Source: Hymenobacter negativus (GTDB taxonomy: Bacteria > Bacteroidota > Bacteroidia > Cytophagales > Hymenobacteraceae). From it: a DNA stretch of 64,000 nt. Both the position numbers and the translations under genes were made by a program. Below are positions 46,353-53,258 of this stretch, one piece after another. Numbering within the stretch: the stretch's first letter is position 1; the number at the start of each line of letters is the position of its first letter. The DNA lies in the NCBI RefSeq assembly GCF_016056375.1, contig NZ_JAEDAE010000001.1, positions 1-64,000 of the forward strand, read 5' to 3'. The notes under the pieces were generated by a model, which made no database searches, was not told where the DNA came from, and saw only the letters and a list, made by a program, of their open reading frames with translations.

Positions 46353-46367
46353 TTGAGCAGATGCTTA

Positions 46368-46469
46368 TTTCCCGCAGTGGGCGCAGTGAAAAGGGCCGTG
46401 TTTCGCAGTGCTATTCGTTGGACGACACTGCGGAACACGGCCCTTTTTCACTGCGACCACTGCGGGAAA
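46368..46469. repeat. 43-base near-perfect inverted repeat between convergent genes
   Basis: The left arm 46368-46410 and right arm 46426-46469 pair with two mismatches and one extra base over about 43 bases, with a 15-base loop. Each arm holds three copies of the word GCAGTG. It separates the glycosyltransferase (ends 46352) from the M56 gene (ends 46491) and can act as a strong terminator for both. The length and internal repetition are more than a terminator needs. Confidence 0.85.
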
Positions 46470-46490
46470 TTTTTCGTGGTGGAAATGAGG

Positions 46491-47999
46491 CTACTTCCCT
46501 TTCTCAACTACTACCAGTGCAATGTTCACTAGGTCGGTAGGCTCATTAGGCCGCATTTCGGGCGCGGGGTTGATGCCCACTTTATTAGGGTCGAACTCTC
46601 CCTGCTGAGCCAAAATGCGTTGCGTTTCCAGTAGTTTGGCCCGGCTGAAATCTTCGCCTGAGCGCAACGGAATGAGCTTGAGTAGAGCGGCCGTGGAGGT
46701 TTTGGTGTTGCCTGTGATGCTAACGCGACCAATCTGTGCTTTCCGGCCTTCGGAAATGTTGAAAGTCAGGTCGGTAGTGCCGTTGGGCTGGCGGGTGGCT
46801 TTCGGGCTTACCGAGAAGAACAGGTAGCCGTGGTCCATGTAGCGAGAGGTTACGTCGTCACCTTTGGGGTCGAAGCTCAGGCGGCGGGCCACGGCGGCGG
46901 AGTCGTAGGCGTCACCGGTTTTGAGGCCCAGGGCCTGGTTCAGTTCAGTCGCCGTCAGATACGTGTTGCCCTGCCAGCTGATGCGGCCAATGCGGCCAAT
47001 GCGGCCCGCTGCCGCATTCGGTGCGGCTGTGGTATTGGCCGGTGCCTCGGCCGGAGCCGCAGTTTCCGGAGCCGGCGAACCGACGCAGGCCGTGGCCGCC
47101 CAGGTAAAGGCAAAAACTGGCACAATGAACAGAAAACGAAGCTTTTTCATGGGAGAGGAAGTTGGTTGAGTGAGCATTTGGATTCGTAGAAAAATTTGTT
47201 TGTGGGAGAAGGCATGAACCAGGGCAAAGGGCAATTGCTGAGCGGCCAGCTTTATCAGCAGTTCGCCGTAAGGGGCAGGGCTGGCCTGGGTGCGGGCCAC
47301 GGCCGCGTCGGCCAGGTACTCGTGCACCACTTTCAGCTGCCGGCCGATGTAGCCCACCGCGCTGTTGAACCAGAACATCACGCCCAGTGCCTCCACCAAG
47401 AGCAAATCCAGGGTGTGGCGCTGCTGCACGTGCACCTGCTCGTGCAGCAACAGCTGCTCACGCTCGGCCGGGCTGAGCGCCTCGTGTAGCGGCGACAAAA
47501 ACACGTGCCGCCCAAAGGAAAAGGCTGGCATACTGGCCTCAGGCAGATGCACGATGGCGAAGGTGCCCAAATCGGTCTGCGGATTCTGCCGGGCCAGCCG
47601 GCGCAACGTCCGCACATTGCGCACGGCCCGCACCAGCTTATAAAGCGCCCCCAACGCGTAAAGAATCACCGCCCCGATTAGCAACATCGCCAGCCAATCT
47701 GGCCCGTTGGGCGTGGGCGTAGCCACCGCCTGGGCCAAGGGCGCATTCAACTGCCAGTTGAGGCGGAGCGGCAGTTGGGCCACGGCCGGCGCGGCGGCTG
47801 GGTTGGCCAGCCAGGCCGCCAGGCCCGGAAAGCCCACCAGCGGAATTACCACGCTTGCCAGCAGGGCACCCAGTAGGTAGGCCCGGTTCCAGGCGAAGTA
47901 GGTGAGGCCGGCTAGCAGCAGGCGGTAGGCCAGAGCAAATATTATCAGGCAGAAGCTGGCCTCGGCCAGATAAAGCAAAAAGCTAGTGAGCATCGCCAT
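46491..47999 (-). CDS. BlaR1-like M56 metallopeptidase with POTRA-like C-terminus
   Basis: 502 residues. Residues 1-270 form the M56 part: membrane helices near 8-28, 40-60 and 103-120, and the zinc motif HEQVH at 186-190 with a further ligand likely in HEYLAD (226-231). A fourth helix lies at 287-304. Residues 339-418 and 421-502 form two beta-alpha-alpha-beta units (YLTATELNQALGLKTGDAYD; IGRVSITGNTKTSTAALLKL), the pattern of POTRA domains of BamA. Normal Bacteroidota M56 proteins end in TonB- or plug-like parts instead. It overlaps blaI by 17 bases. Expected role: it senses an envelope signal and cleaves BlaI. Confidence 0.85.
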   Translation of the reverse strand: MAMLTSFLLYLAEASFCLIIFALAYRLLLAGLTYFAWNRAYLLGALLASVVIPLVGFPGLAAWLANPAAAPAVAQLPLRLNWQLNAPLAQAVATPTPNGPDWLAMLLIGAVILYALGALYKLVRAVRNVRTLRRLARQNPQTDLGTFAIVHLPEASMPAFSFGRHVFLSPLHEALSPAEREQLLLHEQVHVQQRHTLDLLLVEALGVMFWFNSAVGYIGRQLKVVHEYLADAAVARTQASPAPYGELLIKLAAQQLPFALVHAFSHKQIFLRIQMLTQPTSSPMKKLRFLFIVPVFAFTWAATACVGSPAPETAAPAEAPANTTAAPNAAAGRIGRIGRISWQGNTYLTATELNQALGLKTGDAYDSAAVARRLSFDPKGDDVTSRYMDHGYLFFSVSPKATRQPNGTTDLTFNISEGRKAQIGRVSITGNTKTSTAALLKLIPLRSGEDFSRAKLLETQRILAQQGEFDPNKVGINPAPEMRPNEPTDLVNIALVVVEKGK

Positions 48000-48372
48000 C
48001 GGGTTTGGGGCCGTTTTCGGAATCGTGGAGCAGGTCGAGCAACTGCTGTTTCTCGCGCTGGCTCAGGGTTTCTTCTACCATGAACGACACCAGCGCCGTG
48101 GGCGAATTATCGAAATACTGCGCCAGCATCCGCTTCAGGCTTGCGGCCCGGTACTCCATCTTGCTGATGAGCGGGAAGTACTCGTAGGTTTTGCCATAGG
48201 CCTTGAAACCCACGTAGCCCTTGCGCTCCAGAATGCGCACCACCGATGAAATGGTGTTGTAGGGCGGCTTCGGGTCGTCGGGCAAGTGGTCGATAACGTC
48301 CTTTACAAAAGCCTTTTTCAGCTTCCAGAGCGCCTGCATGATGCGCTCTTCCGTTTTGGTTAGTTCTTCCAT
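47983..48372 (-). CDS. BlaI/MecI/CopY family transcriptional repressor
   Basis: 129-residue winged-helix repressor. Opening MEELTKTEERIMQALWKL and the recognition region PPYNTISSVVRILERKGYV are typical. The C-terminal dimerisation helix pair (SLKRMLAQYFDNSPTALVSFMVEE) holds the site that the M56 partner cleaves in this family. Its gene overlaps the M56 gene by 17 bases, so both are made together. A perfect-looking dyad at 48386-48441 lies directly upstream, so the repressor very probably controls its own operon. Confidence 0.94.
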   Translation of the reverse strand: MEELTKTEERIMQALWKLKKAFVKDVIDHLPDDPKPPYNTISSVVRILERKGYVGFKAYGKTYEYFPLISKMEYRAASLKRMLAQYFDNSPTALVSFMVEETLSQREKQQLLDLLHDSENGPKPDGDAH

Positions 48373-48385
48373 GTGTCAAATGTAT

Positions 48386-48441
48386 AACGTATAAATCAGT
48401 TTAAAAACTTGTTATTAAGTTTTAAAACTGATTTATACGTT
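48386..48441. promoter_or_regulatory. candidate BlaI operator, 25-base dyad
   Basis: 48386-48410 and 48417-48441 are reverse complements with one mismatch over 25 bases (outer half AACGTATAAATCAGTTT), with the spacer GTTATT. The dyad ends 14 bases before the blaI start codon and is the only AT-rich stretch in this divergent gap with tatD. A BlaI dimer binds such symmetrical sites, so autoregulation is likely. A function as a dispersed palindrome cannot be excluded. Confidence 0.7.
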
Positions 48442-49377: not shown

Positions 49378-49728
49378 CTACGCGGCGCGTTCCAAGTCGG
49401 TGAGCAGGCCTTCAATCTGGTCCGAATAGGCGTTGACCTGGTCGAGGCCGGCGCGGGCTTCTTCGAGGTGGCCGCGCTGGTAGCGGGTGGCCAGGTCCTG
49501 GCCGGTGCTGAGCATTCGCTGGAGCACGTGTTCGAGCTCGCGCACGGCGGGCTGGCCGGCGGCCTGGGGCTTGAGCACGGTTTGAATCCACTGGCCCAGC
49601 GGGTTCTCGGTGAGGGAAAACAGGGCCGGCTCGGCTTCGCGTACGCCGTAGAGCACCGAGCGCAACCGCGACTTAAACAGCACCTGCTTTACGCGGGCTT
49701 GCTGAAAGTCGAAAGAAGAAAGTGGCAT
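49378..49728 (-). CDS. small CZB-like helical protein, copy 2
   Basis: 116 residues, all-helical. It shares about 65-70 percent of positions by eye with the protein at 51242-51601 (FDFQQARVKQVLFKSRLRSVLYGVREAE is common to both). The spacing of ENPLGQW, RELEHVLQRML and HLEEARAGLDQ recalls the chemoreceptor zinc-binding (CZB) domain, but the His/Cys ligands of CZB are not there, so zinc binding is doubtful. It follows a three-PAS protein gene by 51 bases. Possible role: partner or output subunit of that PAS protein. This is inferred from the fixed gene pairing. Confidence 0.8.
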   Translation of the reverse strand: MPLSSFDFQQARVKQVLFKSRLRSVLYGVREAEPALFSLTENPLGQWIQTVLKPQAAGQPAVRELEHVLQRMLSTGQDLATRYQRGHLEEARAGLDQVNAYSDQIEGLLTDLERAA

Positions 49729-49763
49729 GCTGGGGCTGAAAAAAAGTCGAGCAGAAAGGACCG

Positions 49764-49771
49764 CAAAGATA
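49764..49771 (-). promoter_or_regulatory. putative -7 promoter box (TATCTTTG) for the CZB-like gene
   Basis: On the minus strand TATCTTTG matches TAnnTTTG exactly, 36 bases before the start at 49728 and 9 bases past the stop of the PAS gene. It would allow the small gene to be transcribed apart from the PAS gene. No clear -33 box. Confidence 0.45.
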
Positions 49772-49779
49772 CACCGGTT

Positions 49780-51105
49780 TTAGCCGGCCGTGGCAGTGCC
49801 AAGGGCATCGGTGGCCGCGTCGCGCACATGCTCTAGGGCTTGGCGGGCTTTCACCAGGTCGGTTACCTCAAAAGCGAAGACCATGATACCGGCCGGCTGG
49901 CCGTTTTCGCGGAACTGCTGATAGATGAAATTAAAATAGCTGTCCTTGAGTACGTTGCTGGTGTCGCGCTCCAGCTGCAGCTTCATCTCGTTGCCATGGA
50001 AGGTTTCGCCGGTTCGGAATACGTCGTCGAGGATGGTGATAATGCCCTGGTCTTTCACCTCGGGTAGCACTTCCGCCACGGTGTGCCCCACCAATTGGCG
50101 GTGCGGGAAAATCTGCTGGTAGTTCGGGTTCACGAACTCGTAGCGGTGCTTGGGCCCGCGCAGAATGCAAATCATGGACGGCGCCTGCTGAAACAGATTC
50201 TCATAGGTTTCGCGCTGGTTTTCGGCCTTCTGGTACATCTGGTAGGCCTGCTCGGACAGCGTGTTCTGCTGCTCGTTAGCGGTGAGGAGCTCCTGCACCA
50301 TCTGGCGCTGCTCGTGGATGTCGGTAGCACCGCCCACCCAGAGGTTGATGCGGCCCTCGGCATCGCGGCGGGGCACGGCCCGCACCAAAATCCAGCGGTA
50401 CTGGCCGTCGTGGCGGCGCAGACGGTATTCGACTTGATAGGGGTCGCCGGTTTTCACGGAGGTGAGCCAGGCGGCGAGCACACGGTCGCGGTCTTCTGGG
50501 TGCAGGCTCTCGCCCCATTGCAGGCCGGTTTGCTCGGCCAGGGGCTTGCCGGTGAAAGTGAGCCAGCGGGAATTAAAGTAGTCGCGTTGGCCGGCGGCAT
50601 CGGCGGTCCAGATGAGGACGGGCAGGTTTTCGAGGATGAAACGGGTGCGGTCCTGGGCTTCGTCGAGGTCGCGCTGCACTTGAGCGGCGCGCTGGGCAGC
50701 GCGGTGGGCCTCGGTCACGTTTTGGGTGCGTTGCAGGATGTATTCCAGCTCGCCCTGCTCGTTCAGAATGGGGTAGTGGGTAGCCTGCCAATACATTTCC
50801 TCGAAGCCGCCGCCCTGCTCGGCGGGCAGGGCCAGGTCGTAGCGAATGAGGGGCATGGTGTGCGGCGCATGGTGCTGGCGCACATGCTCATGCGATTGAA
50901 AAATGACATCACCCTCGTTCTGGTCAACCGACGGAAAGGCTTCAAACAGCGTTTTGCCCACTACCTCGGCCCGGGGCTTGAGGGATGCTTCCACGTGGCC
51001 GTCGGTATTGTCGACGATGGTGGCATCGGGCAACATCAGCAGCAGGTTTTCGGGCAGGGAGCGAAACAGGCGCTGATAGTCGGGGGAAGCAACGAAAGCA
51101 GTCAT
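49780..51105 (-). CDS. three-PAS sensor protein without output domain, copy 2
   Basis: 441 residues from the ATG at 51105. Three PAS units: about 8-150 (YQRLFRSLPENLLLMLPDATIVDN), 160-290 (FILENLPVLIWTADAAGQRDYFNSRWLTFTG with a PAC part VEYRLRRHDGQYRWILVR), and 310-430 (YENLFQQAPSMICILRGPKH). Short coiled coils lie between them (residues about 150-165 and 280-315). The protein stops soon after the third PAS (TDLVKARQALEHVRD), just where a histidine kinase domain would begin. There is no kinase, GGDEF or HTH part. It is a close paralogue of 51703-53013, and each is followed by a CZB-like gene. Confidence 0.88.
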   Translation of the reverse strand: MTAFVASPDYQRLFRSLPENLLLMLPDATIVDNTDGHVEASLKPRAEVVGKTLFEAFPSVDQNEGDVIFQSHEHVRQHHAPHTMPLIRYDLALPAEQGGGFEEMYWQATHYPILNEQGELEYILQRTQNVTEAHRAAQRAAQVQRDLDEAQDRTRFILENLPVLIWTADAAGQRDYFNSRWLTFTGKPLAEQTGLQWGESLHPEDRDRVLAAWLTSVKTGDPYQVEYRLRRHDGQYRWILVRAVPRRDAEGRINLWVGGATDIHEQRQMVQELLTANEQQNTLSEQAYQMYQKAENQRETYENLFQQAPSMICILRGPKHRYEFVNPNYQQIFPHRQLVGHTVAEVLPEVKDQGIITILDDVFRTGETFHGNEMKLQLERDTSNVLKDSYFNFIYQQFRENGQPAGIMVFAFEVTDLVKARQALEHVRDAATDALGTATAG

Positions 51106-51241
51106 TGGGTCAAACGGGGAGAGGAAACGCAATACAATACAATACAAGCAGAAAAGGCCGGCGGTCCGAAACTAAAACGGGAGCCCTCGGAGCCTTAAAA
51201 GTACGGCCGGCTGCGCACTGCGCAAAGCCGGCCAGCGGCGC

Positions 51242-51601
51242 TTAAGCCGCGGCCAGGCCACGCTCCAGGGAGAGGAGCAGGGTTTCGATGTGGTCGGCAA
51301 AGGTGTTGATTTGGTCGAGGCCGGTGCGGGCTTCCTCGATGTGACCGCGCTGGTAGCGGGTGGCCAAGTCTTGGCCGGTGCGCAGCATCTGCTGCACGGT
51401 GCGGTCGAGCTCGCGCACCTCGGGGTGGGCGCCGTGCTGGGGCTGGAGCACGGTGTGCAGCCACTGGCCCAGCGGGTTTTCCTGGGGCGAAAAGAGGCTG
51501 GCTTCGGCCTCTCGCACGCCGTAGAGCACGGAGCGCAGCCGCGACTTAAAGAGCACCTGCTTCACGCGGGCCTGCTGAAAGTCGAACGAAGTAAGAGGCA
51601 T
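51242..51601 (-). CDS. small CZB-like helical protein, copy 1
   Basis: 119 residues from the ATG at 51601 (an in-frame ATG at 51643 gives an unsupported 14-residue leader). Paralogue of 49378-49728 with the same block pattern (ENPLGQW, RELDRTVQQML, HIEEARTGLDQINTF). It is all-helical with CZB-like spacing but without the zinc ligands. It is placed 101 bases after the three-PAS gene at 51703, and the same arrangement is repeated downstream. Confidence 0.8.
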   Translation of the reverse strand: MPLTSFDFQQARVKQVLFKSRLRSVLYGVREAEASLFSPQENPLGQWLHTVLQPQHGAHPEVRELDRTVQQMLRTGQDLATRYQRGHIEEARTGLDQINTFADHIETLLLSLERGLAAA

Positions 51602-51702
51602 AGAGAAGGGTGTAGAAAGAATAGAAGGGTGGCCAAAAGGCAAAGAAGCGGCGACAGAGGAGCCGCAAACCTCAACAATGGTTGCGGGCGGCCTACCACA
51701 AA

Positions 51703-53013
51703 TCAGGCCAATGGCAAATCGGGGTCAGTATTGCGGAGTTTTTCCAGGGCTTGGCGGGCCTTCACGAGGTCGGTGACTTCGTAGGCAAACACCATGATGC
51801 CGGCCGGCTGGTCGTTCTCGCGGAATTGCTGATAAGTAAAATTGAAGTAACCCGTGCGCAGCTGGCCGCCGGCGTCACGCTCCAACTGCAGCGGCAGCTC
51901 ATGGGCTTCGAAGCTCTCGCCGGTCTGATACACCTTGTCCAGCAGCTCCATAATGCCCTGGTCTTTGACTTCGGGCAGGGCTTCGGCCACGGTGTGGCCC
52001 ACCAGCTGGCGGTGCGGAAACACCTGCTGGTAGCGCGGGTTCACAAACTCGTAGCGGTGCCCGGGCCCGCGCAGGATGCAGATGAGGGCCGGGGCCTGAG
52101 CAAACAGGTTTTCATAGGTTTCGCGCTGGCTTTCGGCCTTTTGGTACTGCTGGTAGGCCTGCTCGGAAAGGGCGGCCTGGTGCTCGTTGGCCGTCAGGAG
52201 CTCCTGCACCATCTGGCGCTGCTCGTGGATGTCGTTGGCTGCACCCACCCACATGGTGATGTGGCCAGCGGCATCGCGTCGGGGCGAGTTACGGATAAGC
52301 AGCCAGCGGTACTGGCCGTCGTGGCGGCGTAGGCGGTATTCGTGCTGGAAAGGGGTGCCGTTGGCCAGGGCCGTTGCCCAGGCCTGTTGCAGGCCGGTCC
52401 GGTCGTCGGGGTGCGTTATTTCGGCCCAGTCGATGGCCTGCATCTCCTGCTGGGTTTTGCCCGTGAACTCCAGCCAGCGGTTGTTGAAGTAGTCGGGGGT
52501 ACCATCGGGGCGGTTGGTCCACACCAGCACGGGCAGGCTTTCGAGGATGAACCGGGTGCGCTGCTCCGACTCGTCGAGGGCCTGCTTGGCGTGGGTGGCA
52601 GCCCGGCTGGCCCGGTGGGCTTCGGTCACGTCCTGCGGAATCTGCAGGATGTATTGCAGCCGTCCCTGGGCGTCGAGGATGGGGAAGTGGGTGAGCTGCC
52701 AGTACCGCTCCTCGGTGCCGCCGCCCAACTCGGCGGGGCGCTCCAGGTCGTAGCGCAGCAGGGGCATGGTGTCGGGTCGCAGGGTGCGGCGCACCTGCTC
52801 GTGCGAGGCGGCCAGGTCGCGCTGGCTTTCAGGGGCCGAGGGGTAGGCATCGAAAATGTTGCGGCCCACGGCCTGCGCCCGGGGCAGCAGCGACACGGCT
52901 ACGTGCTGGTCAGAATTGTCGAGCACGGTGCCATCGGGGGCCAGCAAAAGGTAGGAGCCGGGGAGGGCGTGAAACAGGGCCTGGTAATCGATGGGCAGGG
53001 AGGTATCAGCCAT
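51703..53013 (-). CDS. three-PAS sensor protein without output domain, copy 1
   Basis: 436 residues from the ATG at 53013. It has the same layout as the protein at 49780-51105: PAS1 (YQALFHALPGSYLLLAPDGTVLDN), PAS2 with PAC (FILESLPVLVWTNRPDGTPDYFNNRW) and PAS3 (YENLFAQAPALICILRGPGH). The linkers (HEQRQMVQELLTANE) are nearly identical in both, and the second PAS has the YRLRRHDGQYRW block of PAS_3. The chain ends at VTDLVKARQALEKLRN without a kinase. Sensing of a ligand or redox state is the family role; the ligand is unknown. Confidence 0.88.
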   Translation of the reverse strand: MADTSLPIDYQALFHALPGSYLLLAPDGTVLDNSDQHVAVSLLPRAQAVGRNIFDAYPSAPESQRDLAASHEQVRRTLRPDTMPLLRYDLERPAELGGGTEERYWQLTHFPILDAQGRLQYILQIPQDVTEAHRASRAATHAKQALDESEQRTRFILESLPVLVWTNRPDGTPDYFNNRWLEFTGKTQQEMQAIDWAEITHPDDRTGLQQAWATALANGTPFQHEYRLRRHDGQYRWLLIRNSPRRDAAGHITMWVGAANDIHEQRQMVQELLTANEHQAALSEQAYQQYQKAESQRETYENLFAQAPALICILRGPGHRYEFVNPRYQQVFPHRQLVGHTVAEALPEVKDQGIMELLDKVYQTGESFEAHELPLQLERDAGGQLRTGYFNFTYQQFRENDQPAGIMVFAYEVTDLVKARQALEKLRNTDPDLPLA

Positions 53014-53258
53014 GAGGCGGGCTAAATGGATAGTGGCGCCACAAGTATCAGCGGACAGTGGTGAGGGGCGCGTGAAGGCGGGGAAGGATGGTTTAGGCCG
53101 CCAAGCAGGGGCGGAGGGCACTGGAAGCCCGGGCCCATTGTTGCCAACAGAGGAGCTTCGTTCTACAAGAATACGAGTTAAGCGGCAATTCGGTTGGAAT
53201 TATCCAATTTCTGAGGCTATAGAGTCAGAAGCTCTTGCTCAACCCATCGTTCGGCTCG

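Follow-up and report, generated by a model that had tools for sequence, protein, structure and literature searches.

The locus studied here raises the question of what a BlaR1-type antirepressor reads in the periplasm when its C-terminus presents two POTRA domains in place of the penicillin-binding sensor domain. To our knowledge, little has been established on how Bacteroidota sense trouble in the assembly of their outer-membrane proteins (OMPs), and the function of many M56/BlaI pairs of this phylum is mostly undescribed. The window is the first 64,000 nucleotides of contig NZ_JAEDAE010000001.1 of Hymenobacter negativus. A preliminary description of the sequence had noted an M56 half with an HEQVH motif and a BlaI partner overlapping by 17 bases, followed by two POTRA-like units in residues 339-502. 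The parts of the fusion gene are the following.

46491..47999, minus strand: M56-POTRA fusion gene, 502 aa (P0001), by ORF, Pfam and AF2
47154..47999, minus strand: residues 1-282, three TM helices and the BlaR1-type gluzincin protease core (PF05569; 8exs, Z 16.8 over 224 residues by VIA-align)
47430..47444, minus strand: HEQVH zinc/catalytic motif, residues 186-190 (sequence; invariance in the alignment)
47307..47327, minus strand: VHEYLAD, residues 225-231, third zinc-ligand motif, (nearly) invariant
47208..47222, minus strand: LVHAF, residues 260-264, matching the BlaR1 autocleavage-loop motif LSHSF (P4-P1'), by sequence
47082..47153, minus strand: TM4, residues 283-306, preceded by KK (AF2 helix 283-306; BlaR1 topology)
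46995..47081, minus strand: disordered Ala/Pro-rich linker, residues 307-335 (AF2 pLDDT <50 at 307-332)
46746..46994, minus strand: first POTRA, residues 336-418, equivalent to BamA POTRA4 (profile and structure matches)
46500..46745, minus strand: second POTRA, residues 419-500, equivalent to BamA POTRA5 (profile and structure matches)

Profile and structural comparison agree on both halves of the protein. Peptidase_M56 (PF05569) matches at 4.7e-13 (49.4 bits against a cut-off of 31), and the POTRA profile (PF07244), whose use had been proposed as a check, matches at 9.6e-21 with two stretches above the cut-off. In a genome-wide POTRA scan, positions 46746-46994 score 45.6 bits and positions 46500-46736 score 36.5 bits, each exceeding the 21.3-bit cut-off. 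The AF2 model, for which the input was an alignment of 22 sequences, presents long membrane helices, disorder at residues 307-332 and a pLDDT of ~90 across residues 336-496, where the β-α-α-β-β order occurs twice. The top structural matches (Foldseek, VIA-align) are BamA POTRA4-5 (5efr, Z 20.1; 9n2f, Z 18.9; 3og5, Z 16.1), while residues 7-267 match S. aureus BlaR1 (8exs, Z 16.8; Z 15-17 for BlaR1 matches overall). The predicted fold is that of POTRA; a TonB_C or unrelated fold, named beforehand as the outcome that would refute the POTRA reading, is not seen. It is confirmed that a complete BlaR1-type M56 protease is followed by two genuine POTRA domains, and both kinds of domain are present in 22 of the 22 homologues scanned.

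The protease motifs are conserved. H186, E187 and H190 of HEQVH are invariant (alignment A2), as are L260 and H262 of the putative autocleavage loop, with F264 in at least 90% of the sequences (alignment A1). The KK ahead of TM4 places the C-terminus, by prediction, in the periplasm. The BlaR1 β-lactam sensor models NF000326 and NF033108 are far from reached (24.8 bits against 400, over residues 169-296 only). The BamA/Omp85 barrel is absent too: the protein terminates at residue 502, directly past POTRA5, the second POTRA stops in the BamA alignment at the point where the barrel would start, and the BamA/Omp85 model TIGR03303 scores 56.1 bits against 297. A lipobox-like Cys304 just past TM4 was considered as the mark of a lipoprotein and dropped as a general feature, the residue being Ala, Trp or Ser in many relatives. 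Rfam gives no match at the locus. Between the fusion gene and a convergent glycosyltransferase gene lies a long imperfect hairpin (46367-46470), whose 29-nt arms are 93% complementary and enclose inner arms of 22 nt; it is either a terminator acting in both directions or a repeat element.

The provenance of the POTRA pair can be traced. Scored with a profile built from the fusion POTRAs, the last two POTRAs of 15 Bacteroidota BamAs reach 97-156 bits, and the remaining POTRAs of these proteins reach 27 bits at most and mostly ~10. Identity to POTRA4-5 of H. negativus's own BamA is 38%. In a tree without a fixed root, where three of the fusion rows are long, one branch (support 97/99) splits the fusion POTRAs from the 15 BamAs; this partition is consistent with POTRA4-5 having been captured from BamA once. 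Several independent captures were considered and rejected, as the fusions stay on one side of that branch (root not fixed). The GYLFF region of POTRA4 is common to fusions and BamA. The BamA-specific POTRA5 stretch T-x-D-H-V-x-x-R...T-x-P-G is not retained in the fusions, so part of the BamA contacts is probably gone. Taken together, these data support derivation of the C-terminal pair from POTRA4-5 of BamA. Some distant M56-POTRA proteins (L112 and L072) carry an extra C-terminal segment of ~100-130 aa beyond the POTRAs.

Homologues of the fusion were found in 28 of the Hymenobacter genomes searched, with intact copies at ~45-86% identity, and in at least three further Cytophagales families (G219, G271, G333/G421); within the family, the threshold used gave none outside Hymenobacter. 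The closest named relatives of the protein belong to H. artigasi and H. siberiensis; a Flammeovirgaceae MAG, the Cytophagales MAG ES-bin-26 and Catalimonadaceae bacterium JC749 are among the other named ones. Hymenobacter sp. IS2118 has two divergent M56-POTRA/BlaI pairs (L095 and L101; 66% and 48% identity to the protein of the window). Across 12 gene pairs, both POTRAs have a dN/dS of mostly 0.05-0.25, no higher than that of the protease; purifying selection acts on both halves. This selection, the spread over genomes and families and the constant blaI neighbor argue that the fusion is no artifact. Copies broken by stops or frameshifts occur in four genomes (G032, G057, G071 and G118), which together with the patchy distribution shows the system to be dispensable and accessory.

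The sole constant neighbor is blaI, which adjoins the fusion where the locus is complete; the gene order varies, and in two distant loci blaI comes second. The neighborhoods compared hold no bam, surA or OMP gene. Linked target genes were rejected, the other neighbors varying between subclades. Elsewhere in the window, positions 49378-53121 (minus strand) hold a unit present twice in tandem, a PAS-like protein of ~460 aa with a small protein of ~120 aa; similar units recur next to the fusion in related Hymenobacter.

47983..48372, minus strand: blaI repressor, 129 aa (P0002; PF03965 at 2.7e-27; MecI match)
48082..48087, minus strand: predicted BlaI cleavage site Ser96-Phe97, aligned with N-F of S. 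aureus MecI/BlaI

The two reading frames do overlap by 17 bases, as first described; many relatives begin at the residue equal to Met3 here, and if that start is the true one the overlap would be 11 bases. In S. aureus, BlaR1 is cleaved in its autocleavage loop Leu-Ser-His-Ser-Phe immediately ahead of Phe284, and the bond cut in BlaI is Asn101-Phe102, the P1' Phe being almost invariant (PMC9834060). F97 of the H. negativus BlaI aligns with the NF of MecI, and every aligned homologue has F or Y at this position. At the level of sequence, the fusion, BlaI and the operator described next supply the parts that BlaR1-like action requires.

Three AAC-N10-GTT dyads with a 20-bp period (48386-48441) form a candidate operator over the blaI promoter. 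The Bacteroidota -7 element has the consensus TAnnTTTG.

48377..48384, minus strand: TACATTTG, which fits the -7 element (sequence)
48386..48401, no strand: operator dyad 1, AACGTATAAATCAGTT (sequence, comparison of loci)
48406..48421, no strand: operator dyad 2, AACTTGTTATTAAGTT (sequence, comparison of loci)
48426..48441, no strand: operator dyad 3, AACTGATTTATACGTT (sequence, comparison of loci)

A scan for E. coli-type sigma-70 promoters found none, as expected in Bacteroidota. The tandem-dyad layout precedes blaI in most loci examined, other families included, with a differing inner dyad sequence. Searches of the genome with a 19-mer (3 mismatches allowed), a double-dyad and a single-dyad pattern place the POTRA-type operator at its own promoter and nowhere else. 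Extra pattern hits were rejected as a regulon, being chance-like, mostly inside coding sequence and unshared between genomes. One hit, on contig C14, was rejected as a target of the POTRA switch; it belongs to a TonB_C-type M56 paralogue (C14:407238-408161; TonB_C 3e-05) with the tandem operator AACTAA...TTAGTT. That this operator is of another flavor suggests that the two switches are insulated.

These elements can be assembled into a mechanism that we hold to be rather probable: a BlaR1-type antirepressor that uses the POTRA4-POTRA5 pair of BamA as its extracytoplasmic sensor. In the uninduced state, BlaI would occupy the three tandem dyads at its promoter and keep blaI-m56P repressed. The periplasmic POTRA pair would bind (or lose) a ligand, most likely an OMP precursor or one of the BAM partners with which POTRA4-5 is normally in contact. 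From there, the signal would pass via TM4 to the cytoplasm-facing M56 protease, which would cut BlaI next to Phe97 and derepress the operon. The sensor architecture is well supported. Because sister M56/BlaI pairs carry other periplasmic modules, the POTRA pair stands in the place of the sensor module. We infer the cleavage of BlaI by the fusion protease, the direction of signaling, the nature of the ligand and whatever targets there may be besides the operon. In E. coli, OMP precursors contact the POTRAs of BamA. The fusion probably reports on the state of BAM or of its cargo.

The preliminary description had gone further, to a sensor of unfolded OMPs in an envelope-stress pathway without sigma-E. 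What holds of the sensor is the BamA-derived POTRA pair, its periplasmic side and the intact BlaI-cleavage and operator motifs; the OMP reading itself does not follow from them. As for the pathway, RseA_N is absent from the genome by a profile search in which the E. coli control is positive, a result that removes only one canonical alternative. A stress regulon would be hypothetical: the operator of this flavor was found at its own promoter only. A switch unlinked to bam, surA or OMP genes, for which no second operator target was found, is odd for a stress pathway, and it is therefore the nature of the module that carries the envelope-stress claim.

Three other functions for the POTRA pair were weighed. 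It could read the assembly state of BAM, by binding a free BAM partner (BamP-like, or BamD) that docks on POTRA4-5, rather than unfolded OMP. The N-terminal domain of BamP binds BamA POTRA 4 and POTRA 5 in F. johnsoniae, exactly the captured pair; BamP is, however, restricted in distribution (PMC12611786), and the fusions are without the BamA-specific POTRA5 stretch. We regard this function as unlikely. Alternatively, the pair could be the output, a self-amplified POTRA protein with an inner-membrane anchor that tethers outer-membrane precursors or acts as their chaperone, with the trigger sensed elsewhere, such as in the TM2-TM3 loop. The one strong operator of POTRA flavor being at its own promoter, the main known product of induction is indeed the fusion itself. 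BlaI regulons, however, can use degenerate sites, which escape a pattern search. An output role seems improbable to us: the sensor of BlaR1 is the domain beyond TM4 (PMC9834060), and the sister M56 proteins vary exactly there. Just as improbable is a mere periplasmic scaffold (for dimerization or another envelope contact) unconnected to BAM. In its favor, POTRA is a general protein-interaction fold and the neighborhoods show no genetic link to BAM; against it, the module is an intact P4-P5 pair from BamA, with shared GYLFF-type motifs and low dN/dS.

The antirepressor with a BamA-derived sensor is a concrete candidate that lends itself to testing, since the residues to mutate and the promoter to read are already defined. 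If true, it would be a clean example of a sensor made from a copy of that part of the monitored machine which contacts its clients. A description of M56 or BlaR1 with POTRA was not found in the literature, which is weak evidence given that subscription papers were mostly outside the search. Tentatively, Cytophagales may have grafted BamA POTRA4-5 on a BlaR1-type protease as a sigma-E-independent monitor of OMP assembly, and on a wider view the M56/BlaI switches of Bacteroidota may report on outer-membrane machines in a modular way, through parts borrowed from TonB, TonB-receptor plugs, type 9 secretion and BAM; this is a possibility that we would stop short of calling probable.

Comparison with known systems sets the fusion in context. 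With BlaR1/BlaI and MecR1/MecI of S. aureus, where a protease of this kind turns on penicillin resistance, it shares the gluzincin M56 protease, four TM helices, the HEXXH and LxHxF motifs, a BlaI partner with the cut-site Phe and dyad operators over its own promoter. Where BlaR1 and MecR1 have a class-D β-lactamase-like sensor, the fusion has two BamA POTRAs, and its operon is without a β-lactamase or PBP gene. The M56 half and the BlaI partner are also common to Bacteroidota M56-TonB_C proteins paired with BlaI; these and other sisters have TonB_C, Plug, Por_Secre_tail or M23 modules where the fusion has POTRA. TonB_C occurs on 41 of 46 other Bacteroidota M56 proteins, and Plug, Por_Secre_tail, M23 or GldM modules on some of the 46. 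Sorting tails of type 9 secretion are seen on 15 of 46 other Bacteroidota M56/BlaI partners (A3 members, L114-L169). To judge by domain content, the POTRA form is one more swap of the periplasmic module, here with a part of BAM, and the Plug, M23, GldM and type 9 tail modules may likewise sense outer-membrane machines. With BamA (Omp85) the fusion has POTRA4-5 in common, but it is anchored in the inner membrane and lacks POTRA1-3 and the barrel. If the ligand is an OMP, the logic of DegS-RseA-sigma-E in E. coli, from periplasmic OMP status through proteolysis to transcription, would be shared; in place of a PDZ sensor and an anti-sigma factor, a one-step cleavage of the repressor is proposed here.
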